Shown in pieces: positions 2,502 through 22,297 of a stretch of 25,219 nucleotides of DNA. Numbering within the stretch: the stretch's first letter is position 1; each line of letters starts with the position of its first letter. The notes below the pieces were generated by a model. The model was given only the letters and a program-made list of their open reading frames with translations, did no database searches and had not been told where the DNA came from. The position numbers were made by a program, and so were the translations under genes. Origin of the DNA: Zymomonas sp. (GTDB taxonomy: Bacteria > Pseudomonadota > Alphaproteobacteria > Sphingomonadales > Sphingomonadaceae); assembly GCA_027489105.1 (NCBI GenBank), contig JAIYAJ010000317.1, positions 1 through 25,219 on the forward strand. The letters run 5' to 3'.

Positions 2502-4943
2502 TTAGAAGCGCGCGGTCAACTGCAACTGCACCGTGCGGGGAAGCGAGACGAAGCCGATCTGGTCGGCCGGGGTGGCGGTGTTGGTGCCGGTTCCCACGCC
2601 GGTGTTCGGCGCATCGACCACGCCGCCGACGATGAAGCGGTTGGTCAGATTCTTGCCGATCAGTGCGATTTCGTAGCGGCTGTCGTCGAACTTGACGCGA
2701 ATCGTGCCGTCCATCGTCAGGTAGCGCGGCTGGCGCGACAGCGGATGGGCGAAGCTGGAGGCGAGGTAGGAGCTCGAATAGCGCGTATCGACCGACAGGC
2801 CGAGGACGGCGTTGCCCGACAGCGGCGTGTCATAGCTGGCGCCGAGCGATCCGGTCCATTTCGGCGCGACCGCGGTCGGCTTGCCCGACAGGTCCTGACC
2901 CAGAGCGCCCTGGAAGCTGGTGTCGCATCCGGCCGCGATCGACTGGCCACCATAGCAGGGCGCGATATAGCTGCCGTAGCGGGCGCGGTTGTAGTTGAGC
3001 GAGCCGTGCAGGTCGAAGCCGGCAAGGGCACGCGGCGCATATTGGAATTCGAGCTCGACGCCTTTGGTCCGCGCCGAACCGGCGTTGGTGGTGATGAAGG
3101 CGAAGGTCGCCGAGTTGAAATAGTCGACCTGCAGGTCGAGATATTTATAGCTGTAGAGGCCCAGGTTCAGGCGCAGCTGGCGATCGAACAGCGTCGTCTT
3201 GATCCCGCCCTCGAAGCCACGCGCGCGCTCCGGATTGAAGGCGACGTCGCTGGGGATGGTGGTGCCGCTGACGAAGCCGCTGTTCGAGAAACCGCCCGAT
3301 TTATAGGCGGTCTTGTAGGCGCCATAGACGGTGATGTCGCGGGTCGGCTGCCAGGTCAGCGTCGCTTCGGGGGACCAGTTGTTGAAGGTCTGGTCGCCGA
3401 AGATCGGGCTGTTCTGCAGGAAGATGCCCTGGATCGCGGCGTTCACATAGGGCTGGACCAGGAAACTGTCCTTGGTCTCGTGCGTGTAGCGGACGCCGGT
3501 CGCGAATTCGAGCGTCGGCACGATCTTCCACGACAGCTGGCCATAAGCGGACAGCGTCTCGCCCTCGGTTTCCGAACGCTTCAGATAGGCGAGGTAGCGC
3601 AGGTTGGCCGGCTGCGAGCTGTCTTCGATATTGGCGAAGGCGCCGGTCTGGGTGTGGTCGCGCTTGGTCGACTGATAATAGGCGCCGGCCAGCAGATTGA
3701 CCGGCCCGTCGAAGCTGGTCTGCGCGCGGAATTCGGACGAGAAGGCGTGATATTTCGACTTTTCGGACGAGGGCGCGGCCGCAAGGTTCGACGAGACGAA
3801 GGTGCAGTCGCACGACCAGCGGTTGTTGTTCTCGTTGTAATTGTTGATCCAGGTCAGCGTCAGCCCGTCGAGCGCATATTCCGCGGTGCCGGTAACCGCC
3901 CAGCTCCGATAGCGGTTGTAGAGCGCGCCATCCTTGCGGCTGAACGGCTGGTTGCCGGCGATGTCGACGGGGATGTTGTTCTGGTAGACGTTGAACTTGC
4001 GCTCGCACTTCACGTTCGGGTTGAGCGCGTAGGTGCCGGCCGCGCAGGCGAAGGGCACATAGTTCCAGCTGTTGTTGTCGGTGTCGTTCGACGAGAGATT
4101 GGCCTTCAATGTCATCGTCAGCCGATCGACCGGCTCCCATTTCAGCGTCACGCGGCCGAGCAGTTCCTGCTCGCCCGGATTGTCGCGGGTCGAAGCACGG
4201 GCCAGGTGCGGCGTGGTGACGCCGGTCGCGATGTCGAAGGTGTTGTAGGTCTTGTCGGTGCCGCGATTCTTGAAATAGCCGCCGAACATGTTCGACGCGC
4301 GCAGCGCGACGCGGATGCCGAGCGTGTCGGTCAGCGGGCCCGAGGCCATCGCCTCGCCAACCAGATTCTTGCCGCGAAATTCATAGCCGAGCCGGCCCAT
4401 ATATTCGGGCTTGGAGGTCGGATCGGCCGAACGGATAGCGATCACGCCGGCGGTCGCGTTCTTGCCGAAGAACAGTGCCTGCGGACCTTTGAGCATCTCG
4501 ACGCCGGCCAGGTCGAGGAAGCCCTCGTTGATCACGCGGCCCTGGCCATAATAGACGCCGTCGAGCACGACCGCGACCGACTGCTCGATGCCGATCGAGG
4601 TCGAGGAGGAGCCGATGCCGCGCAGCGTCAGCTGGGCGCCGGAACCGTTCGACGAGCGGCCGATGGTGAATTGCGGCGTCTGGGTGGAGATCTTCTCCAG
4701 GCTCGTCATGTCATATTTCTGGATCTGCGCCGCCGACAGCGCGGTGACCGAGACGGGGACGTCCTGCAGGCTTTCCTCGCGACGCCGCGCGGTGACGACG
4801 ATCTCGGTGAGGCCGCCCTGATCGCTTGCCTCGGGGGCTTGCGTCTGTTGAGCGGCGGCAGGCGTCGCGACGAGGGGTAGCAATATGGCGCTGCCGAGCA
4901 GCATGGTGCGCATGATCGTGCCGAAGCGGGTGTTCACAGGCAT
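2502..4943 (-). CDS. TonB-dependent outer-membrane receptor
   Basis: This 813-residue protein is a TonB-dependent receptor of the large sphingomonad/caulobacter group used to import hydrophobic or aromatic compounds. A signal peptide ends near residue 31 (LLPLVATPAAA), and the TonB box is at about residues 46-54 (TEIVVTARR). The plug domain follows (VPVSVTALSA, LRGIGSSS, GVYYGQGR, VEMLKGPQALFFGKNATAGVI), then a long beta-barrel that closes with the terminal-Phe signature QLTARF. GGGAGAG six bases before ATG 4943 supports the start. It lies between the TetR gene upstream and the oxygenase operon downstream on the same strand, so it probably imports the substrate of those enzymes and is controlled by the TetR protein. 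The ligand cannot be assigned; siderophore uptake is possible but fits the neighbours less well. Confidence 0.95.
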   Translation of the reverse strand: MPVNTRFGTIMRTMLLGSAILLPLVATPAAAQQTQAPEASDQGGLTEIVVTARRREESLQDVPVSVTALSAAQIQKYDMTSLEKISTQTPQFTIGRSSNGSGAQLTLRGIGSSSTSIGIEQSVAVVLDGVYYGQGRVINEGFLDLAGVEMLKGPQALFFGKNATAGVIAIRSADPTSKPEYMGRLGYEFRGKNLVGEAMASGPLTDTLGIRVALRASNMFGGYFKNRGTDKTYNTFDIATGVTTPHLARASTRDNPGEQELLGRVTLKWEPVDRLTMTLKANLSSNDTDNNSWNYVPFACAAGTYALNPNVKCERKFNVYQNNIPVDIAGNQPFSRKDGALYNRYRSWAVTGTAEYALDGLTLTWINNYNENNNRWSCDCTFVSSNLAAAPSSEKSKYHAFSSEFRAQTSFDGPVNLLAGAYYQSTKRDHTQTGAFANIEDSSQPANLRYLAYLKRSETEGETLSAYGQLSWKIVPTLEFATGVRYTHETKDSFLVQPYVNAAIQGIFLQNSPIFGDQTFNNWSPEATLTWQPTRDITVYGAYKTAYKSGGFSNSGFVSGTTIPSDVAFNPERARGFEGGIKTTLFDRQLRLNLGLYSYKYLDLQVDYFNSATFAFITTNAGSARTKGVELEFQYAPRALAGFDLHGSLNYNRARYGSYIAPCYGGQSIAAGCDTSFQGALGQDLSGKPTAVAPKWTGSLGASYDTPLSGNAVLGLSVDTRYSSSYLASSFAHPLSRQPRYLTMDGTIRVKFDDSRYEIALIGKNLTNRFIVGGVVDAPNTGVGTGTNTATPADQIGFVSLPRTVQLQLTARF

Positions 4944-5092
4944 GTCGTCTCTCCCAAGACCCTATGTTTTTCTGTCCGTGACGCTTGGTGAGGCGCGTCG
5001 ATCCCGTCGATCGACGTCGAAATCAGACTATCCTCTCGCGGCGCCAGCATGTGCTTTCGCGGACGAGCGAAGGAAACACGCAGCGTGAGAAG

Positions 5093-5122
5093 CGTCAATA
5101 TATTTTACAGCAGACTGTAAAA
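5093..5122 (-). promoter_or_regulatory. Putative TetR operator with a TTGACG -35 element upstream of the receptor gene
   Basis: TTTTACAG (5103-5110) and CTGTAAAA (5115-5122) form a perfect 8-bp inverted repeat with a 4-nt centre, a size and symmetry typical of TetR-family operators. On the minus strand it is followed by TATA and TTGACG (5093-5098), a good -35 box, but no convincing -10 follows at 17 nt. The dyad begins 3 nt after the TetR stop codon and about 160 nt before the receptor start. The stem could also act as a weak AT-rich hairpin after the TetR gene. Its use as the TetR operator is inferred. Confidence 0.5.
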
Positions 5123-5124
5123 AA

Positions 5125-5820
5125 TTACAGGTCCATTGGTGCGACGCTGCGCCGAGCCGCGTCCAGCTTTTCGCGGGCGGTGTCGAGCAAGTCGCGCAGC
5201 GGTGCCTGGCGGCCGGCAGGCACATAAGGCAGCAGCGTCTCGACGATGCGGGTGGAAATATAGGGCTCCAGTTCCACGTCGCTGAGTTCGTCTTTCGACC
5301 AGAACAGGACCGCGGCCGTGACCCCGAGCCGGATCAGGCGGATCAGCAGCGCATGCGGATAGGCCGGGTCGAGATCGCCCGCCTCGGCCATCTGCTCCAG
5401 CGCCAGTGCGATCCGCCCTTCATAGACCGTCTCCAGGCCGACCAGGTCCGAATGTTCGAGCAGCACCGTCGCCAGCGCCCGGGCCATCGGCGGGTCGGCC
5501 AGGGTCAGTTCGGCCGCCATCCGCGCGAAGGTGCGCAGCATCGGCCAGCCGCCCTCGGGCGCGGCTTCGACCGCCGCTTCGAACAGCTTGGCGCTGCGCT
5601 CGCGCGCGGCGGTCGCGATCAGGCGGTTCTTGCTGCCATAGACATTGTAGAGCGTCTTTTCGGTCGTGCCGCTCTCGGCGGCGATCGTGCGCATCGAGAC
5701 GCCGTCATGGCCGTGGAGGCCGGTCAGCCGGCAGGCGACGTCGAGGATGCGTTCATGCCGCGCGGCCTTGCGCGGCGTCAGCTTGGCGGTTCTGGAAAGC
5801 CCGGACATGGCACGAGCCAT
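5125..5820 (-). CDS. TetR/AcrR-family transcriptional regulator
   Basis: This 231-residue protein has a TetR-type N-terminal helix-turn-helix at about residues 22-68 (RILDVACRLTGLHGHDGVSMRTIAAESGTT, then KTLYNVYGSKNRLI). An all-alpha ligand-binding domain follows that I cannot assign to a substrate class. Two starts are possible, ATG 5820 and ATG 5808 (Met5), and neither has a good ribosome-binding site. The helix-turn-helix begins well after both. It precedes the receptor and oxygenase genes on the same strand, and a perfect dyad just after its stop codon is a good candidate target. A likely role is substrate-responsive repression of the catabolic block. It lies 49 nt downstream of the anti-sigma gene, so some read-through from that operon is possible. 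Confidence 0.92.
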   Translation of the reverse strand: MARAMSGLSRTAKLTPRKAARHERILDVACRLTGLHGHDGVSMRTIAAESGTTEKTLYNVYGSKNRLIATAARERSAKLFEAAVEAAPEGGWPMLRTFARMAAELTLADPPMARALATVLLEHSDLVGLETVYEGRIALALEQMAEAGDLDPAYPHALLIRLIRLGVTAAVLFWSKDELSDVELEPYISTRIVETLLPYVPAGRQAPLRDLLDTAREKLDAARRSVAPMDL

Positions 5821-5869: not shown

Positions 5870-6568
5870 TCAGCTGCGGGACGGCAGGCGAACCATCTGG
5901 CCGGAATAGACCACGGGGCCGGTCGGCAGGCCGGTCGGCGATCCACCCTTGGGTTCGACCGAAACCGCGATGGTCATGTCCTGCGCGGTGTCGAGGCGGA
6001 GCTGTTCGAGCGCCGGGCTGCCATCCTCCGGCATCAGCCCGATCGACTTCGGCGCCGCCTTGCCCGCGATCACCCACAATTCCATGCTGTGACCGGGCTT
6101 GTCGGCGACATTGACCGGGGTGACCTGAAGCCGGCCCGATACCTGATCATAGGTGACGAGCAGGGCCGGGGTGCCGCCCTTCTCGCTGAGCGCCGCGACC
6201 GACTGGATCGTTGCTCCGCCCCGTTCGGCGACCTGCGTCGCAGGGGCAGGCGGCGGGGCAGGCGGACGCAGCGCCATGCCGATGCTGCCCATCGCGACGA
6301 GAAGCGCGGCGGCGGTCGCCATCTGCCAGCGGCGCACCGCGCCATTGTCGTTCGCCGGTTGTCCGGCCGCAACGCGCGCCCAGACGCTCGCAGGCGGATC
6401 GACCGCTTCGACCGTCAGCAATAGCGGGGCAAGCCGGTCCTGCCAGGCCGCCACTGCGGCAACGGCGGCCGGATCGGTCAGCAAACGGCGCTGGAAGGCG
6501 CGCCGTTCGTCGGCGTCGAGCGTGCCGAGCACATATTCGCCGGCGATCGGATCGATATCCTCAGCCAT
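5870..6568 (-). CDS. RskA-type anti-sigma factor, single-pass membrane protein
   Basis: This 232-residue protein has the layout of an anti-sigma-K factor. A cytoplasmic N-terminal sigma-binding segment (residues 1-50, DIDPIAGEYVLGTLDADERRAFQRRL) is followed by one membrane helix at about residues 83-100 (MATAAALLVAMGSIGMAL). A Pro/Ala-rich linker leads to a periplasmic RskA domain (HSMELWVIAG, SIGLMPEDG, AVSVEPKGGSPTG). No HxxxCxxC zinc motif is present, as is usual for this group. The ATG overlaps the end of the sigma gene by 8 nt (GATGGCTGA), so the two are translationally coupled. It probably holds the sigma factor at the membrane until a periplasmic signal, in other systems redox or proteolysis, releases it. 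The signal here is unknown. Confidence 0.9.
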   Translation of the reverse strand: MAEDIDPIAGEYVLGTLDADERRAFQRRLLTDPAAVAAVAAWQDRLAPLLLTVEAVDPPASVWARVAAGQPANDNGAVRRWQMATAAALLVAMGSIGMALRPPAPPPAPATQVAERGGATIQSVAALSEKGGTPALLVTYDQVSGRLQVTPVNVADKPGHSMELWVIAGKAAPKSIGLMPEDGSPALEQLRLDTAQDMTIAVSVEPKGGSPTGLPTGPVVYSGQMVRLPSRS

Positions 6569-7088
6569 CGAGGCATCCTCTCAGCCGGGCGAGGCCGCGA
6601 TGCAGCCAGCTCTTGATGGTTCCGGTCGGATGACCGAGCCGCTCGGCCAGTTCCTCGCGGCTCTCTCCGTTGAGATAGGCGGCCAGGATCAGCGATCGCT
6701 GCTCGCTGTCCAGCCGTTCGAGACAGACCCGGAGTGCCGCCAGCTGTTCCGCCGAGACGGCATTGTCGGTCAGCGTATCGAAGTCGAAATCCTCGTCGCG
6801 CTGGCGACCCGCCGGGCGCTCGCGGCGGCGCAGGTCGATCGCGACGTTGCGCGCGATCGTCGCCGCCCAGGTGATCGGGCTGCCGCGCTGGGCATCGAAC
6901 CCTGCGGCGTTGCGCCAGATCTTCGCATAGGCATCCTGCATCGCGTCTTCCGCTATCGACCGTTCGGGCAAGATACGCAGGATGACCCCGAAAAGTTTTG
7001 CCGAAGTGCGCTGGTAGAAGCGCGCAAAGGCCGCGCGGTCGCCATTGGCGATGGCCAGCAGCAGGTCGGGCAGCTCCTCAGCGGCCAT
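6561..7088 (-). CDS. ECF RNA polymerase sigma factor (SigK-like)
   Basis: This 175-residue protein contains sigma-70 region 2 (about residues 22-90: ILPERSIAEDAMQDAYAKIWRN, TWAATIARNVAIDLRRR) and region 4 (about residues 112-170: LERLDSEQRSLILAAYLNGESREELAERLG, PTGTIKSWLHRGLARLR). Regions 1 and 3 are missing, the ECF arrangement. Its stop overlaps the RskA-like anti-sigma gene, which identifies the regulatory pair. Its ATG overlaps the moaE stop codon by one base (TGATG), so it is coupled to molybdopterin-synthase translation. RNA polymerase would be directed to an unknown regulon, and I could not define a target promoter. Confidence is high for the family; the SigK label rests on the RskA partner. 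Confidence 0.93.
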   Translation of the reverse strand: MAAEELPDLLLAIANGDRAAFARFYQRTSAKLFGVILRILPERSIAEDAMQDAYAKIWRNAAGFDAQRGSPITWAATIARNVAIDLRRRERPAGRQRDEDFDFDTLTDNAVSAEQLAALRVCLERLDSEQRSLILAAYLNGESREELAERLGHPTGTIKSWLHRGLARLRGCLDG

Positions 7089-15531: not shown

Positions 15532-16932
15532 TCAGAGCCCCAGCTGTGTCCGGTCGACCGTGGCCGCGACAAGTTCTGCGCGCGACGCCGCCTGGCGATA
15601 TTCGGCGTCGATCTGGCGTAGCCGCGCGTCGGCGGCCGTCTCCTCACGCAGGTTGACGAGCAGGAAGTCGCTGGCGCCCAGCTGGAAACGGCGACGTTCC
15701 GCTTCCGCCATGCGGTTCGCCAGTCGTGCTTCGTCGGCGGCAAGGTTCACCAGCTTGGACGTCGCGTCGACCTGGATGGAGAAGGAGCGGATCTCGACCT
15801 GGATCTGTTCCGACAGCAGCTTGCGGCGCAGCGTCAGGCTTTGGGCCTCGGCCTCGGCTTCGGCGATGCGGCCGCGCGCCTGGCGGCGCTGCAACGGGAC
15901 GGAGAAGCGCAGGCCGACGATGGTCTCGGTCGGTGAGCGGCTCGACCCGCCGAGCCCGGCCGGCCCGATGTCCTTGCTCGTCTCGGCCCGCACGTCGAGG
16001 CGCGGGGAGAGTTCATTTTCGGCCAGTTGGATCTTGGTGCGGTTCTGGTCGAGGCGAACGAGGATCGCGTCGAGATCGGGCCGCGAGATCGGCATGCCTT
16101 CGAGCGCGCTGGTCGGCGGGAGCGTGAAGGTCGGAAAACTGGCCGGCAGCCGGGAGCGGTCGACGACGACGGGGGTGCCGCTATCGTCGCGCAGAAACAG
16201 CGACAGGCTGTTGGCCGCCGCCGCGAGATCCTGTTCGGCCCGCACCAGCAGCGCTTCGCGCCGGATCATGTTCTGACGGTTCTCGGTCGCAAGGATGTCG
16301 GGCCGTGAGCCGCGCGCCACCTGTTGCTCGATCGACTGCTGCCGGTCGGTCGCCAGCTTCAGCAGATCGCGATAGATGGCGACCCGCTGACCCGCCGCCA
16401 CCCAGTTCTGATAGGCGTCGATCGCGCGCCGCTGAACGCCGATCGCGACCATTTGGCGGTCGAGCCGCGCGATGTCGATGTCACGCTCGGCGATCGATAG
16501 CTTGGCCCGGCGATCATCGATGAAGCGGTCGCGCAGCAGTGCGAAATAGCCGCCCAGCTTCACCTCGCCGAGCCGGTTGGTGAAGGACTTGTCTTCATAG
16601 ATCGGAAAGTCGCCGCGCGAGACGCGATAGCCAGCATAGAGGCCGCCGCCATTGTTGAGCAGCGGCTGGCTCGCCTTGCCCTCGACGATCGTGCCGTCAT
16701 AGGTGCCGGTCAGCCGACTGGTCGCATCGGCTTCGAACAGCAGGTCGAACGCGCCTTGTGCCGAGAGCCGCCGCCCTTCCACCTGCCGCTGCTTGGCGAT
16801 CGCGTCGAGGATCGCCGGCGCGTGCTGCGCAGAGGAGCGCAGCAGTTCATCGAGCGTCAGCGGGGTGGCTGCGCCGGCCGGAGCCGCCAGCAGACCCAGC
16901 AAGGCCAGAACCGGCAGCAGCCAGCGGATCAT
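15532..16932 (-). CDS. TolC-family outer-membrane efflux protein
   Basis: This 466-residue protein is a TolC-like outer-membrane factor that forms the exit duct of tripartite exporters. A signal peptide ends near residue 21 ([18 protein letters not shown]). Two OEP repeats follow, with long amphipathic coiled-coil helices ([99 protein letters not shown]) and the strand segments that build the barrel. It overlaps the HlyD-type gene by 4 nt (ATGA) and is the last gene of the exporter module. It may serve only this system, because the frame overlap indicates fixed stoichiometry. Confidence 0.93.
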
Positions 16933-17996
16933 TTGGCGGTGTCCTTCGCGGAGTCGGCCTTGGCCGCATAGCCCGCTTCGGCTTCCTGCGCCGGGCGGCG
17001 GAACTCGAGCGGGAAGTCGTTGAGCTGACGCCAGAGTTCGTAGCCGAGCGACACCGTCTCCATCTGGATCCAGCCGCGCACTTTCGCGCCTACGCGGACA
17101 TAGGCGGCGGCCGGCCAGGGGGCCTTGCCGGGGGTTTCTTCGATGATGACACGAAACAGGCCGGTGGCCTGGGCGGACGGGTCGATCGAGCGGACCCGCC
17201 CGTCGAACATGCCCTGCGCGACCGAAGGCCAGCCGCTGAACTGGATCGCTGGCCAGCCTTCGAAGGCCAGCCGCACGGGCCGGCCGGGCCGGACAAGCGC
17301 GATGTCACGACCGTCGATCATCAACTCGATAACGCGGGCGGGGGTTTCCGGTGCGAGCATCGCAAGCTGGCTGCCTGCGCTGACCAGCGTGGCGCCCGCG
17401 ACCGCATTGATCGACTGGATGCGGCCGTCGCGCGGGGCGGTGACGAGCAGCGCTGACTGGCGGTTGAGGGCGAGATCGGCGCGGTTGAGCTTGGCGCGCG
17501 ACTCTGCCAGCTTGGCACGCTGTTCGGCGACCTTGATCTGCGTCGCTTCATAATCGCGCCGCGCGATCAGCCCCTCCGAAAGGAGCTGCGCCGACCGGTT
17601 AACGTCGAGCTGGGCGACGGCGATCGCCTGCTCCACGGACGCGACCTCGGCCGCCACCTGCGCCCGTTCGGCCTGCAGGCGGGCGACCACATTGGGGTCG
17701 TTGTCGACGAGCAGGGCAATCTTGTCGCCCTTCGCCACCACCTGACCGTCCTGCACGAACCATTTTTCGACACGTCCGGGTACGAGGGCGGTGATCGGCT
17801 GGACACGGTCGAGCGGCGACAGGGCAATCACCTGCCCGGTACCGGCCGAGGTCTGCACCCAGGGCACGATGAACAGCAGGACGGATATGATCCCGATGGC
17901 GATGCCCAGCATCCACGCGATGACGCGCGCCATCCTGGGTGGCTGGAGCGAATCCAGCGTGCGGAAGTGCCGGATATGTTCAGGCCTGAAGGGCAT
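16929..17996 (-). CDS. HlyD-family membrane-fusion (periplasmic adaptor) protein
   Basis: This 355-residue adaptor has a short cytoplasmic N-terminus and one membrane helix at about residues 23-46 (ARVIAWMLGIAIGIISVLLFIVPW). The first lipoyl half follows (ITALVPGRVEKWFVQDGQVVAKGDKIALLVDNDP), then a coiled-coil hairpin (about residues 100-180), the second lipoyl half (VTAPRDGRIQSINAVAGATLVSAGSQLAMLAPE) and beta-barrel domains (VELMIDGRDIALVRPGRPVRLAFEGWPAIQFSGWP). It joins an inner-membrane pump to the TolC-like channel. AAGGA before ATG 17996 fixes the start inside the ABC gene, giving a 17-nt overlap, and the 3' end overlaps the tolC-like gene by 4 nt. The three genes are therefore one translationally coupled unit. 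Confidence 0.94.
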   Translation of the reverse strand: MPFRPEHIRHFRTLDSLQPPRMARVIAWMLGIAIGIISVLLFIVPWVQTSAGTGQVIALSPLDRVQPITALVPGRVEKWFVQDGQVVAKGDKIALLVDNDPNVVARLQAERAQVAAEVASVEQAIAVAQLDVNRSAQLLSEGLIARRDYEATQIKVAEQRAKLAESRAKLNRADLALNRQSALLVTAPRDGRIQSINAVAGATLVSAGSQLAMLAPETPARVIELMIDGRDIALVRPGRPVRLAFEGWPAIQFSGWPSVAQGMFDGRVRSIDPSAQATGLFRVIIEETPGKAPWPAAAYVRVGAKVRGWIQMETVSLGYELWRQLNDFPLEFRRPAQEAEAGYAAKADSAKDTAK

Positions 17997-19671
17997 TAGC
18001 CGATCCTTCCCGCTTGGCCGTTTCCATGAGTTCTGTATCGGTTGCGCATCGCGTCTGGCTGGTCGTGCCGATCCAGAGGTAGCCGTCACGCACGATGCCT
18101 TGCGGGCGGCGCGTGAACTGCAGCACGGTCGTTCCGCTTTCGCGCAGCCTGGTGAGTGCACGGTTCAGGCAGTCCGGCGGCATCAGATCATAGAGTGGGG
18201 ACAGTACCAGCAGCTTCGGGCGCGCGAGCAAGGCCGCCGCCAGCTTGAGCGCGATCAACTCGCCGACCGATAGCGGCCAGCCCGAGCTGGAGATGATCGT
18301 ATCGAGGCCCTTTTCGAGGCTGCTGATCCGCCCGGCCAGATCGACCGTCTCCAGCACGCCGATCATCCCGTCCTGCGTGCCGGAAGCGGCCAGGCGCAGA
18401 TAGTCGCGGATCGACATTTCGACGAAGCTGGGGCGGTCGAACACCATGATGTCGGCGCGGAGCCGATACATGTCGAAGCCGGAAATATCTCCGCCCCCGA
18501 TCAGCACCATGCCGCGCCGCGCCACGGCATGCCGCTTGAGCAGGCGTGACAGCGAGCCTTCCACGCCCGCCGCCGCCATGACCACCAGCTGCTCGCCGCT
18601 CTCGATCGAGAAGTCGAACCGATGGTCGCCATATTCGGCGCCGCGCAGCCTCACCGCACCGTCGACCGGACCGGTGCCGCCCGTCTGTCCCTGTTCCTGC
18701 GGGATCTCCCAGAACAGCGACAGCTCCTCGAGCCCGGCGGCGAACTCGTACAGTGCCTCGAGATAGGTTCCGAACTGCGAGATGCCGTAGAAGACCCCGG
18801 ACAGGATCAGTTCGGCCGCGACCAGCTGGCCGATCGACAATTCGCCGCGGATGATCAGCCACCCGCCCAAAGCGAGCAGCGTGGCGCTGGCGAGCGCGTA
18901 GATCAGCAGCAGGGCGATCGTCTGTGCGAAGGTGTAGCTGAAATGCTTGCGGTGGGCCGCGACATAGCCCGCCGTCAGCGTTTCCGAGCGCTGGATGGCG
19001 TAGGCCAGGTGACGACTCGACTTGTAGAATCCGTTCGAGCCGCCGACACTTTCGAGCCAGTGGGCTGCACTGTGCTTCGCCTGGCTCTTCTCGACCGCGC
19101 TCGAGATGGCTGCGGACGCCCAGAACTGCCAGACAAGCAACAGCAGGAGGACCAGGACCGCGTTGAAGGCCAGGAAAAAGGGATGATAGAAGCTGGTCAC
19201 TGCCAGCCCGATCACGCCCTGAAGCGCGATGGTAAACCCGCCGATGATGAGGCTGGGCAGCGCTTTCTGCACAGTCATCAGGTCGAAATAGCGGTTAAAC
19301 AGGTCGCCGCGCAGCGCGTCGGTGAAAAAGGGGTTCTGCGCGTGCACCGCGCGCAGCGTGATCTCCGCGACGATACGGGCGAACCAGCGCCGCTCGAACC
19401 GCGCCATAAGGTGGATGCGGATTGCGGACAGGATGCCCGACAGCGCGAGCAGCAGGAACAGGATCAGCGCCAGGGTGAACAGCGGTGCGGGCAGGGCGGT
19501 GTTCGCGACCGAATTGATCAGCAGCTGGACCGAGATCGGGGTTGCGAGCGACAGCAACGAGATCGCCACGCCATAGACGGCGGCGATCTTGAGATAGCCG
19601 GCGTCCGGAGCGAGGACGAGCTTGATCCAGCCCCGCAGCGCTCTCACCCCATAATTTTGTCCCGCCACCAT
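17980..19671 (-). CDS. ABC exporter half-transporter with degenerate (pseudo-ATPase) nucleotide-binding domain
   Basis: This 563-residue protein has a type-I exporter membrane domain (residues 20-310, six helices, with FERRWFARIVAEITLRAVH and FNRYFDLM landmarks) fused to an ABC domain (residues 340-540) of normal length. The ATP-handling residues are lost. Walker A reads AAAGVEGS (366-373), lacking the Lys; the Q-loop Gln is Phe411; the signature is LSVGE (467-471); Walker B ends in Leu-Ser-Pro (490-492) without Asp or Glu; the D-loop is not recognisable; the H-loop His is Arg521. Secondary-structure landmarks around each motif remain, so this is not a frameshift or a truncated gene. There is no C39 peptidase domain. 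GGGAGG stands 2-3 nt before ATG 19671; the next codon, GTG, is an alternative start. It is coupled to hlyD- and tolC-like genes. It may pump without ATP hydrolysis, pair with an unlinked partner, or be a scaffold. Confidence 0.88.
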   Translation of the reverse strand: MVAGQNYGVRALRGWIKLVLAPDAGYLKIAAVYGVAISLLSLATPISVQLLINSVANTALPAPLFTLALILFLLLALSGILSAIRIHLMARFERRWFARIVAEITLRAVHAQNPFFTDALRGDLFNRYFDLMTVQKALPSLIIGGFTIALQGVIGLAVTSFYHPFFLAFNAVLVLLLLLVWQFWASAAISSAVEKSQAKHSAAHWLESVGGSNGFYKSSRHLAYAIQRSETLTAGYVAAHRKHFSYTFAQTIALLLIYALASATLLALGGWLIIRGELSIGQLVAAELILSGVFYGISQFGTYLEALYEFAAGLEELSLFWEIPQEQGQTGGTGPVDGAVRLRGAEYGDHRFDFSIESGEQLVVMAAAGVEGSLSRLLKRHAVARRGMVLIGGGDISGFDMYRLRADIMVFDRPSFVEMSIRDYLRLAASGTQDGMIGVLETVDLAGRISSLEKGLDTIISSSGWPLSVGELIALKLAAALLARPKLLVLSPLYDLMPPDCLNRALTRLRESGTTVLQFTRRPQGIVRDGYLWIGTTSQTRCATDTELMETAKREGSANALQA

Positions 19672-19782: not shown

Positions 19783-20673
19783 TCACGCAATCGTTTGCCT
19801 CAACATCTCCGCCAGAGCAAGAAATGCCGGTGCGCGGCCCGAGCCCGCGCGCCAGACCAGACCGATCTCGCGATAATAGCGGCCTTCGGCAAAGGGGCGG
19901 ACGACGACGTCGTCGTCCTCGCGCACTTCCTGCCGCACATAGCGCTCGGGCAGCAGAGCCAGACCCATGCCCATGCCCGCCATCTGGCGGATGGCGTCGA
20001 GGCTGGTTCCCTCATAATCACGCAGAACCTGCGCATCGGCTGCGGCGGCCAGTGCCATGATCTGGTCGCTCATCCGATATTCGGGCTGCAGCGTGAGCAG
20101 CCCCCGTCCGCGCAGGTCGTCGAGCCCGATGCCGTCCGCCCCACGGAGCGGGTCGTCCGCCGCCATGGCGATCAGCAGCGGCTCGCGGAACAGGGACTCG
20201 ATGTGCAGATTGCCGCCATCGACAGGCAATTGCACCAGGATGACGTCGTGAATCCCGCTCAGCAGATTCTCGGTCAGCCTGTTGGGCAATCCCTCGCGAA
20301 CATGGACCCTGAGCGAAGGGCTTACCGAGTGAAGTCGCGCCACGACCTGCGGGAGCACATAGGGCCCCAGGGTCGGGCTGACGCCCAGTCGGATCGTCCC
20401 GACCAGCGGATCGTCCGACCGACGCGCGGTGGCGACGAAATTGTCGACTTCCACCAGCACCCGGCGCGCTGCTGCGACGGCCTCCCTGCCCAGCGGGGTC
20501 AATATCGCGCGCCGTCCGCGTTCCACGATCCGCCCGTTGAGCAGGCGTTCGATCTGGTGGATCTGTTCCGAGAAGCTCGGCTGGGATACGCCCTCGGCCG
20601 CGGCCCCGCGCGTGAAGCTGCCATGATCGGCCAGGGCGACCAGATAGCGCAGCTGTCTTAGCGTCGGGTTCAT
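19783..20673 (-). CDS. LysR-family regulator, OxyR-like but without cysteines
   Basis: This 296-residue protein has the LysR winged helix-turn-helix (residues 1-60: LRQLRYLVALADHGSFTRGAAAEGVSQPSFSEQIHQIE) and an effector domain close to OxyR throughout (TIRLGVSPTLGPYVLPQVV, HDVILVQLP, GTSLDAIRQMAGMGMGLALLP, REIGLVWRAGS). Aligning LLTLQPEYRMSDQIMALAA with LLMLEDGHCLRDQAMGFCF of E. coli OxyR puts Arg200 at Cys199 and Ala209 at Cys208, and the whole protein contains no cysteine. It cannot use the OxyR disulfide switch. It lies directly upstream of the exporter module on the same strand, and an OxyR-type operator follows its stop codon, so it probably controls that module. The inducer is unknown. 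ATG 20673 has a weak ribosome-binding site. Confidence 0.93.
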   Translation of the reverse strand: MNPTLRQLRYLVALADHGSFTRGAAAEGVSQPSFSEQIHQIERLLNGRIVERGRRAILTPLGREAVAAARRVLVEVDNFVATARRSDDPLVGTIRLGVSPTLGPYVLPQVVARLHSVSPSLRVHVREGLPNRLTENLLSGIHDVILVQLPVDGGNLHIESLFREPLLIAMAADDPLRGADGIGLDDLRGRGLLTLQPEYRMSDQIMALAAAADAQVLRDYEGTSLDAIRQMAGMGMGLALLPERYVRQEVREDDDVVVRPFAEGRYYREIGLVWRAGSGRAPAFLALAEMLRQTIA

Positions 20674-20733: not shown

Positions 20734-22263
20734 TCAGTGCGCGGCGCTGGTGTCGACGTCGGCGGGCGGCCTCGGCGAGAACCAGATGACCAGAGCGGCC
20801 GCGATGAAGATGACCGTCGACACGGCGAACAGCTGGGTGGTCGCCAGGGTTGCGCTTTCCTGGTCGACCAGTCGCTCGATCGTCGACAGCGCCTGTTCGA
20901 CGCTCATGCCCATCGACGCCAGAACCGACTGGGTTTCGCCGGGCTGCAGGGTCGAAGCGAGGTCGTTGCGCGCAACGCGGGTGCTGTTGTCCCACCATGT
21001 GCTGGAGAGCGACGTGGCGATCGCCCCCGCCATGGTGCGCAGGAAGTTCATCACCCCGGCGGCCGAGGCGGTTTCCTCGGGATCGACCGCGCCCAGTGCG
21101 ATGATCGTGACCGGTACGATGAAGAAGGGCAGGCCGAAGCCCTGCATCAGCTGCGGGAGGGCCAGCGTCCAGAAGTCGGCCTCGCTGGTCCATAGCGCAC
21201 GGGGAATGCAGGCGAGTCCCATCGACACGATGCCGAAGCAGACGATGGCGCGCGGATCATATCTCTCGGTCAGTTTGGCCGCGACCGGGGACATGACCAC
21301 GGCGAGGACGCCGGTGAAAGCGGTCGCGTAGCCGGCCCAGGTCGCGGTGTAGCCCATGCTCGTCTGCAGCCATTGCGGGATGATTACTGCCGAGGCGAAG
21401 AATGTCCCAAAGGCAAAAGCGAGGCTGGCGACCGCGACAGCGAAGCCACGGTGCCGGAACACCCGGATGTTCACGATAGGCTCTTTCTCGGTAATCTCCC
21501 AGATCAGAAAGACGACGAAGCCGATCGCCGCGACGATGCCCAGGCTGACGATGAAGCCGTCTTCGAACCAGTCGTGCTCCCGGCCCAGGTCGAGCATCAG
21601 CTGCAGCGCGCCGATCCACAGGACCAGCAGGACGAGGCCGACCATGTCGACGCCCATCCTGACCCGAAGCGTTTCCGACCTGGCGAGCATGATCGACGCA
21701 CCGGCGGCACAGAACAGCGCGACCGGGATGTTGATGAAGAAGATCCAGTTCCACGACCAGTTGTCACTGATCAGGCCGCCGAGGATCGGGCCGAGCACGG
21801 GCGCGACAACGGTCGTCATCGCCCAGATGCCCATGGCCTGGCCATGTTTCTCCTTCGGAAAGATGCGCAGCAGCAGCGTCTGGCTGAGCGGCATCAGCGG
21901 GCCGCCGCACAGTCCCTGTCCGACGCGGCAGGCCACCAGCATGGTCAGCGTGGTCGAAAGCCCGCAGAGGACGGAGAAGATCCCGAAGCCGAGCATGGCG
22001 ACGGCAAAAGTGCGGACAGCGCCAAAGCGCATCGCCAGCCAGCCGGTCAACGGAACGCAGATTGCCTCTGCCACGGCATAGGAGGTGATGATCCACGTCC
22101 CCTGGGACGGCGAGATGCCCAGCGATCCGGCGATGTGCGGGACCGAGACATTGGCGATGGTCGTATCGAGCACGACCATGAAATTGGCGAGAGCCAGCAC
22201 GATCCCGGCGGCGAGCAGGCGTCCACCGCGCAGCGTCTCGGCGGGAAGATCATTGGGTGCCAT
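20734..22263 (-). CDS. DHA2-family MFS multidrug transporter (EmrB/QacA type)
   Basis: This 509-residue protein is a 14-helix proton-driven exporter. The N-terminus LANFMVVLDTTIANVSVPHIAGSLGIS is the DHA2 motif D1. GWLAMRFGAVRTF is motif A, and VVAPVLGPILGGLISDNWSWNWIFFINIPVALF is the antiporter motif C region typical of EmrB. Substrates are usually hydrophobic drugs or uncouplers. ATG 22263 is preceded by GGAG eight bases away. No emrA adaptor gene is adjacent, although the HlyD- and TolC-like genes of the next module could in principle serve it. Two operator-like repeats stand in its promoter region, yet no TetR or MarR gene is beside it. It lies between rsmB upstream and the LysR gene downstream, all on minus. 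Confidence 0.94.
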   Translation of the reverse strand: MAPNDLPAETLRGGRLLAAGIVLALANFMVVLDTTIANVSVPHIAGSLGISPSQGTWIITSYAVAEAICVPLTGWLAMRFGAVRTFAVAMLGFGIFSVLCGLSTTLTMLVACRVGQGLCGGPLMPLSQTLLLRIFPKEKHGQAMGIWAMTTVVAPVLGPILGGLISDNWSWNWIFFINIPVALFCAAGASIMLARSETLRVRMGVDMVGLVLLVLWIGALQLMLDLGREHDWFEDGFIVSLGIVAAIGFVVFLIWEITEKEPIVNIRVFRHRGFAVAVASLAFAFGTFFASAVIIPQWLQTSMGYTATWAGYATAFTGVLAVVMSPVAAKLTERYDPRAIVCFGIVSMGLACIPRALWTSEADFWTLALPQLMQGFGLPFFIVPVTIIALGAVDPEETASAAGVMNFLRTMAGAIATSLSSTWWDNSTRVARNDLASTLQPGETQSVLASMGMSVEQALSTIERLVDQESATLATTQLFAVSTVIFIAAALVIWFSPRPPADVDTSAAH

Positions 22264-22297
22264 CACCGGACTCCGAAGGCGGATTGCGAGTCGAACG

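Follow-up and report, generated by a model that had tools for sequence, protein, structure and literature searches.

HlyB, the ATP-binding cassette (ABC) exporter of E. coli haemolysin, is a working ATPase. The inner-membrane part of EmrAB is a proton-driven member of the major facilitator superfamily (MFS), and that of MacAB is a MacB-type ATPase. Experiments on ATP-independent work by an ABC-exporter transmembrane domain (TMD) have so far used LmrA and MsbA in engineered, truncated form, as far as the available sections of the source papers go. Cassette-less LmrA carries out ethidium-proton symport without ATP, and the E314A substitution in its sixth transmembrane helix (TM6) abolishes the pH-gradient dependence (available sections of PMC2704374 and PMC6155054). 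Cassette-less MsbA exports ethidium in a pH-gradient-dependent manner (available sections of PMC4979069). A review of tripartite systems mentions degenerate nucleotide sites, in the sections available, for heterodimers only (Chem Rev 2021, PMC8277102). Here, we describe an exporter with a degenerate cassette, linked to a dedicated adaptor and a TolC-family channel, in a 25,219-nucleotide (nt) stretch of Zymomonas sp. DNA (contig JAIYAJ010000317.1), referred to as the window. The whole is best explained as an obligate tripartite exporter with a pseudo-ATPase subunit of the ABC fold that would be driven by a gradient, and we consider the case for this explanation evenly balanced.

The exporter gene is an intact open reading frame (ORF) with an ATG start at 17980..19671 on the minus strand, as are all features of the operon described below, and it encodes 563 amino acids. 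Its TMD (residues 1–330; 18682..19671) matches Pfam ABC_membrane at 45.2 bits against a cut-off of 28, and its helices are present in the structural model. The cassette (residues 331–545; 18037..18681) scores 14.3 bits against ABC_tran, where the cut-off is 25, and retains the fold in the model. The window protein has the organization that defines type I (ABCB-like) exporters, in which an ABC_membrane domain of six helices is joined to a cassette of the ABC fold. It has none of the features of an active ABC ATPase, which are Walker A, the Q-loop, the LSGGQ signature, Walker B with the catalytic Glu, and the H-loop. The former Walker A reads AAAGVEGS (A366–S373; 18553..18576) and has no Lys, the former signature is LSVGE (467–471; 18259..18273), the former Walker B is LVLSPL (18193..18210) with S491 and P492 where Asp and Glu are expected, and Arg521 (18109..18111) occupies the former H-loop position. 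These losses had been reported in a first-pass annotation of the window and were verified residue by residue. The annotation also gave Phe as the replacement for the Q-loop Gln. The loss of the Gln stands, and the identity of the replacement depends on a one-residue gap that aligns either Phe411 or Asp412, Gln in neither case.

The adaptor gene (355 amino acids; 16929..17996, ATG at 17996) is of the HlyD type and overlaps the 3' end of the exporter gene by 17 nt. The TolC-family outer-membrane channel gene (15532..16932; Pfam OEP, 97 bits) overlaps the adaptor gene by 4 nt. The two overlaps suggest translational coupling of exporter, adaptor, and TolC, and the annotation was right to describe an intact gene beside HlyD and TolC partners. 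A linked HlyD-type adaptor and TolC-type channel are the hallmark of type I secretion and tripartite efflux systems, and both are present. The adaptor carries the C-terminal signature YELWRQLNDFP (17010..17042), an adaptor motif found throughout the clade defined below.

The exporter is confidently predicted to keep an HlyB/TmrAB-like ABC-exporter fold. The AlphaFold model built from 102 alignment rows has a predicted local distance difference test (pLDDT) score of 90.5 and a predicted template-modelling (pTM) score of 0.83, and most of the cassette lies above pLDDT 90; it supersedes a model from 24 rows (pTM 0.47). The model agrees with the proposal of the annotation that a non-catalytic cassette retained its fold.

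The same motif losses extend through a clade of exporters. The clade set consists of 499 sequences (488 distinct), including three lists of 120 nearest homologues, with a Persicobacter protein excluded; the set is redundant, so the counts refer to sequences and not to events. Motif columns were read from a single MAFFT alignment with five canonical references (L110, L111, L112, L114, and one MsbA-like ORF of L042). Loci L110–L114 are canonical type I secretion ATPases (G443, G481, G571, G666, and the second G587 match) that scored near the threshold and were removed from the clade; this outgroup has canonical ABC motifs, and L113, a fragment, was left out of the counts. All of the 120 nearest homologues listed (61–96% identity) have the losses, and most contain replacement words such as DRP[ST]xVE, SGWPLSVGE, and LSPLYDLLPP. 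The best 80 of 228 confirmed genome loci, which come from Sphingomonas, Novosphingobium, Croceicoccus, Xanthomonas, Caulobacter, Methylobacterium, and others, show the same losses without exception (80/80). An intact P-loop was seen only in relatives at 31% identity or below, so the close homologues with intact Walker A and B motifs that the annotation had named as contrary evidence were not encountered in this set. The annotation had treated the exporter as one odd protein. It is degenerate as described but not singular, for the system is widespread.

No sequence among the 499 keeps more than three of the six motifs. The Q-loop Gln is kept in none, the catalytic Glu in 11, the H-loop His in 10, and the Walker B Asp in 147. 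Walker A is complete in 135 sequences, of which 134 belong to one subclade (beta type B, which includes the Methylobacillus-type relatives, 134/137) and one is from the Bacteroidota (1/2). It is complete in none of the window's group A (0/208), the intermediates I (0/8), the Alteromonas type C (0/125), and groups G (0/17) and g (0/2), the last two originally encountered in the class of G373. In 346 of the 499 sequences, Gln, Glu, or Asp stands in the column of the Walker A Lys, and the 208 group A sequences also have no Walker B Asp. The alignment establishes that the cassette lacks the conserved ATP-hydrolyzing residues and, in the branch of the window, the ATP-binding residues as well. Two acidic residues show the opposite pattern. 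Glu287 in TM6 (GQLVAAEL; codon 18811..18813) is present in 499/499 clade sequences where the five canonical references have Asn, Gln, or Val, and Asp495 in the former D-loop (codon 18187..18189) is present in 492 (99.2%) where the references have Ser.

In maximum-likelihood trees of 59 sequences, the clade stands apart from five canonical exporters on a long stem with a support of 98 (TMD) and 100 (full length). Groups A, I, and C join with a support of 99 in the TMD tree and 45 in the full-length tree. The simplest history would place the loss of the hydrolysis motifs in the clade ancestor or earlier, and that of the P-loop later and more than once. Clade members occur in Alpha-, Beta-, and Gammaproteobacteria and on plasmids of Bacteroidota (Aureibacter, Riemerella, Persicobacter), with the distant relatives in other Proteobacteria and on the Bacteroidota plasmids at ~21–51% identity. 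The clade was found in 42/121 and 55/112 genomes of two orders, which were picked for holding a match, and in 3/289 genomes of the class of G002.

The exporter is under purifying selection, judged from substitution rates, and drift does not explain its state. The ratio of nonsynonymous to synonymous substitution rates (dN/dS) between the window and L001, a locus from a metagenome-assembled genome (MAG), is 0.036 for the whole exporter, with 0.022 for the TMD taken alone and 0.062 for the cassette. The adaptor gives 0.060 and TolC 0.041, and the cassette values in nine other pairs range from 0.045 to 0.179. The relaxed selection that the annotation had raised as a possible objection is not seen, with the reading frame and operon also preserved. 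A sequencing error, its other objection, is unlikely because the independent MAG locus is 96% identical and carries the same motifs. A decaying gene or pseudogene, or a sequencing error, is therefore refuted and has a negligible probability; the motif loss itself, and nothing beyond it, speaks for this idea, against the low dN/dS, the losses shared by the 120 listed homologues and all 80 loci, and the kept frame and operon.

HlyD follows the exporter in 80/80 loci, and TolC is in the expected place in 79/80, none being detected at L061. These positions were counted from gene ends; strict start-codon distances gave HlyD in 64 and HlyD plus TolC in 37 of 80, reflecting alternative starts. The motif [YF]E[LIMV]WRxxNxFP near the adaptor C terminus and the word F[ED]G[WF]P were found in 147/147 clade loci (up to L152, best adaptor), 13 of which are repeats of the same place. 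Among the canonical loci L110–L114, HlyD was detected in three, all without the C-terminal word, and the other two had no detected HlyD. The combination of TM6 Glu287 with a linked [YF]ExWRxxNxFP adaptor thus characterizes the clade, and the window locus has both.

A search with the adaptor profile alone addressed the concern that a degenerate seed finds degenerate members. The profile matched 11/398 Pseudomonadota genomes and 11/274 genomes of one class, and these were the identical genomes recovered by the exporter search once four genomes whose only matches were canonical type I secretion ATPases had been removed. Exporter and adaptor matches lie −15 to 308 nt apart in the 20 distinct genomes, and no genome in the two samples has the adaptor without the pseudo-exporter or the reverse. 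Since this search made no use of the exporter sequence, it argues that the lack of intact members is not an effect of the degenerate query, and ascertainment bias was set aside. The profile (A4) was built from clade adaptors, and further-diverged adaptors could escape it. The comparisons establish, at the level of sequence, that the motif loss is clade-wide, that the exporter is maintained by selection, and that it never occurs without its adaptor in the genomes sampled.

It is highly probable that the system is both hydrolysis-incompetent and a functional, dedicated tripartite system. That export is driven by a gradient is plausible, though we lean slightly to the doubtful side. In the proposed mechanism, a homodimeric exporter would sit beneath a periplasmic adaptor ring and TolC, by analogy with HlyB, and would move a small or hydrophobic substrate. 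The pseudo-cassettes would clamp one half to the other and give the cytoplasmic gate its shape. An ion or substrate gradient, detected in the TMD cavity, would supply the drive in place of ATP hydrolysis in the exporter's own cassette, and the invariant Glu287 of TM6 would be the likeliest coupling residue. The more general proposal of an ABC-fold exporter class that does not use ATP, with a secondary-active TMD coupled to ions through the TM6 Glu and cassettes serving as non-catalytic dimer clamps, is tentative. If it were true, the P-loop-bearing relatives would be intermediates in the abandonment of ATP and the clade would be the natural counterpart of cassette-less LmrA and MsbA. The argument for ion-coupled transport is indirect and draws on the invariance of Glu287 together with the LmrA and MsbA precedents.

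Several observations weigh against this mechanism. Glu287 may bind substrate or be structural, and it presumably differs in position from LmrA E314, going by the numbering that we assume; equivalence of the two residues is not claimed. The P-loop or the Walker B Asp is kept in 153/499 sequences (31%), namely in subclade B, group G, and one Bacteroidota protein, so a nucleotide may still play a role in those groups. In 154/499, the signature retains its Ser and its second Gly, mostly as the LSxGE type. Full-length MsbA with the Walker A Lys deleted does not export ethidium (available sections of PMC4979069), and the equivalent Lys deletion strongly inhibited ion transport by LmrA (available sections of PMC2704374). 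The two deletions indicate, within what those sections report, that inactivation of the cassette is not by itself enough to release the membrane domain and can block it.

The main rival to a gradient drive is a scaffold or gated channel, in which the pseudo-exporter does no more than anchor and open the path formed by adaptor and TolC, so that substrate leaves passively or is handed over by a biosynthetic enzyme or another pump. We regard it as unlikely. Sequence cannot separate a scaffold from a machine with another energy source, both of which the annotation had proposed. The preservation of the modelled cassette fold without its chemistry suits a scaffold, and so does an adaptor conserved about as strongly as the exporter. 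However, the TMD is the best conserved part of the exporter (mean column entropy in group A of 0.73 bits compared to 1.20 bits for the cassette) and contains invariant residues, as expected if the TMD handles substrate. Nor is a partner pump commonly linked; an EmrB-like ORF occurs in 7/80 loci, and partner enzymes were outside this search.

The annotation also suggested a heterodimer in which the window protein would pair with an active ABC half-exporter encoded at an unlinked site; TM287/288, TmrAB, and BmrCD are examples of heterodimers. This is the conventional answer for degenerate chains, and the known ones occur in heterodimers (available sections of PMC7756269). The structural model resembles TmrAB, and the 154 sequences that keep the signature Ser and second Gly would suit a partner's site. 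A canonical ABC ORF lies near 19 Xanthomonas loci of the 80, and 25/25 clade genomes checked have at least two other PF00664 matches (3 to 9 in all). We nevertheless find this explanation disfavored and improbable. The exporter has its own adaptor and TolC, the private adaptor co-occurs with it completely, and 60/80 loci have no canonical ABC ORF in the fetched stretch; the 20 that do are the 19 Xanthomonas loci and one with a 303-amino-acid ABC ATPase. The only other two PF00664 matches in G013 have Walker A, LSGGQ or LSGGE, the Walker B Asp-Glu, and the H-loop His, and these complete canonical motifs make them look self-sufficient. Other subclades have also lost the signature that the partner's site would need (e.g. 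LQPLE, FTELE).

Binding or use of nucleotide through a non-canonical site is a shade more improbable still. The fold retained in the model and the 135 complete Walker A motifs are consistent with it. The 208 sequences of group A, with neither a complete Walker A nor a Walker B Asp, and the 346 sequences with Gln, Glu, or Asp in the Lys column argue against it.

Some clade members differ in organization. The exporter at L103 (1063–3132, plus strand) comes close to a working ATPase, with a P-loop and the Walker B Asp-Glu but an altered Q-loop, signature (LSSSQ), and H-loop. The excluded Persicobacter protein has GYSNSGKN, which by eye resembles a P-loop apart from an Asn where Ser/Thr is expected. 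A further N-terminal segment of ~150 amino acids with no Pfam match is found at L120 (1462–3588, minus strand; beta type) and L152 (~3003–5168, plus strand; Persicobacter), and our guess is that it could be the remnant of a C39-like domain as in HlyB. The 931-amino-acid frame at L151 (1375–4170, minus strand; the same place as L092, genome G100) has ~340 residues ahead of the exporter domain and could be a fusion or merely reflect an upstream start codon. Sphingomonas sp. TDK1 (G012) has two pseudo-exporter copies (L025 and L070), ~60% and 62% identical to that of the window. A pseudo-exporter is also encoded in Novosphingobium aromaticivorans DSM 12444 (SARO_RS19820). The operon lies on plasmids of Novosphingobium, Sphingobium, Sphingomonas, Aureibacter, Persicobacter, and Riemerella (L115–L119, L152), so it may move between replicons. 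At three Xanthomonas loci (L042, 6093–7910; L046, 6093–7910; L060, 5706–7922) an intact MsbA-like exporter gene ends ~1.1 kb upstream of the pseudo-exporter; a canonical ABC ORF sits in a comparable position in the remaining 16 Xanthomonas loci, and none was seen in sphingomonad loci.

The window contains 109 ORFs of at least 80 amino acids, many overlapping on opposite strands, and 28 were given to Pfam. No second ABC gene was found among these 28, in agreement with the annotation, and no linked substrate gene was recognized. Rfam and tRNA scans of the window gave no match. A LysR-type gene (19783..20673, minus strand) lies directly upstream of the exporter and may encode its regulator; a LysR-like ORF is present at some position in 50/80 loci. 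Further upstream is an EmrB-type MFS efflux gene (20734–22266, minus strand), with no second adaptor gene recognized among the scanned ORFs. This linked EmrB gene was considered as the power source and rejected, the EmrB-like ORF being confined to seven of the 80 loci. A ribulose-phosphate epimerase gene lies downstream of the operon in the Pfam scan. Elsewhere (5870–7088, minus strand), an extracytoplasmic function (ECF) sigma factor gene (6561–7088) adjoins an RskA-type anti-sigma gene (5870–6568), and a TonB-dependent receptor gene (2502–4943) lies near this pair.

No curated model covers the clade among the best 25 NCBIfam models per protein. For the window exporter, none of the best 25 of 28 models reached its cut-off, and the HlyB, LssB, and PrtD models TIGR01846, TIGR03375, and TIGR01842 scored 87.1, 81.9, and 55.5 bits against cut-offs of 725.55, 693.1, and 510.15. 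The best model for the window adaptor was TIGR01730 (87.5 bits, cut-off 94.9), with none reached among the best 25, and four other clade exporters and two adaptors reached no cut-off among the best 25 models each. A search of open-access PubMed Central found no paper on the clade. Public names of the named members are mostly 'ABC transporter transmembrane domain-containing protein' or 'ABC transporter ATP-binding protein', from which ATP-driven transport is easily assumed. The mode of working is probably one not yet described. Ion-coupled transport, if shown, would mean that the ABC-exporter fold can use energy in a new way. Evolution appears to have run the truncation experiment by keeping exporter, adaptor, and channel and removing the ATPase, with the P-loop-bearing subclade as a possible intermediate, and these environmental bacteria offer a test system for energy coupling.

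Compared with solved systems, the closest is HlyB/HlyD/TolC (8dck), with the same modelled fold (template-modelling score 0.85) and the same set of exporter, adaptor, and TolC. No solved clade structure was recognized in the best 60 of 273 and the best 60 of 262 matching chains; HlyB is the first tripartite-system chain in the exporter's sequence list, and the adaptor of its complex, 8dck_C, is the best match of the adaptor profile. The identity to HlyB is 19%, and the clade exporter differs in having no catalytic motifs, GQLVAAEL in TM6 where HlyB has GQLIAFNML, and a C-terminal WR motif in the adaptor. EmrAB-TolC and MacAB-TolC share the adaptor and TolC, and EmrA and MacA chains score below the HlyD chain against the adaptor profile, but their inner-membrane parts are not an ABC-exporter fold with a dead cassette. 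TM287/288, TmrAB, and BmrCD share the fold and a degenerate nucleotide site (available sections of PMC7756269); in these, degeneracy is limited to one site of the two and the partner chain is competent, whereas in the clade the sole chain is degenerate throughout. The membrane domains LmrA-MD and MsbA-MD are ABC-exporter membrane domains that work without ATP, as is proposed for the clade, with a TM6 glutamate that matters in LmrA according to the sections cited above. They are laboratory truncations, whereas the non-catalytic cassette of the clade is natural and conserved.

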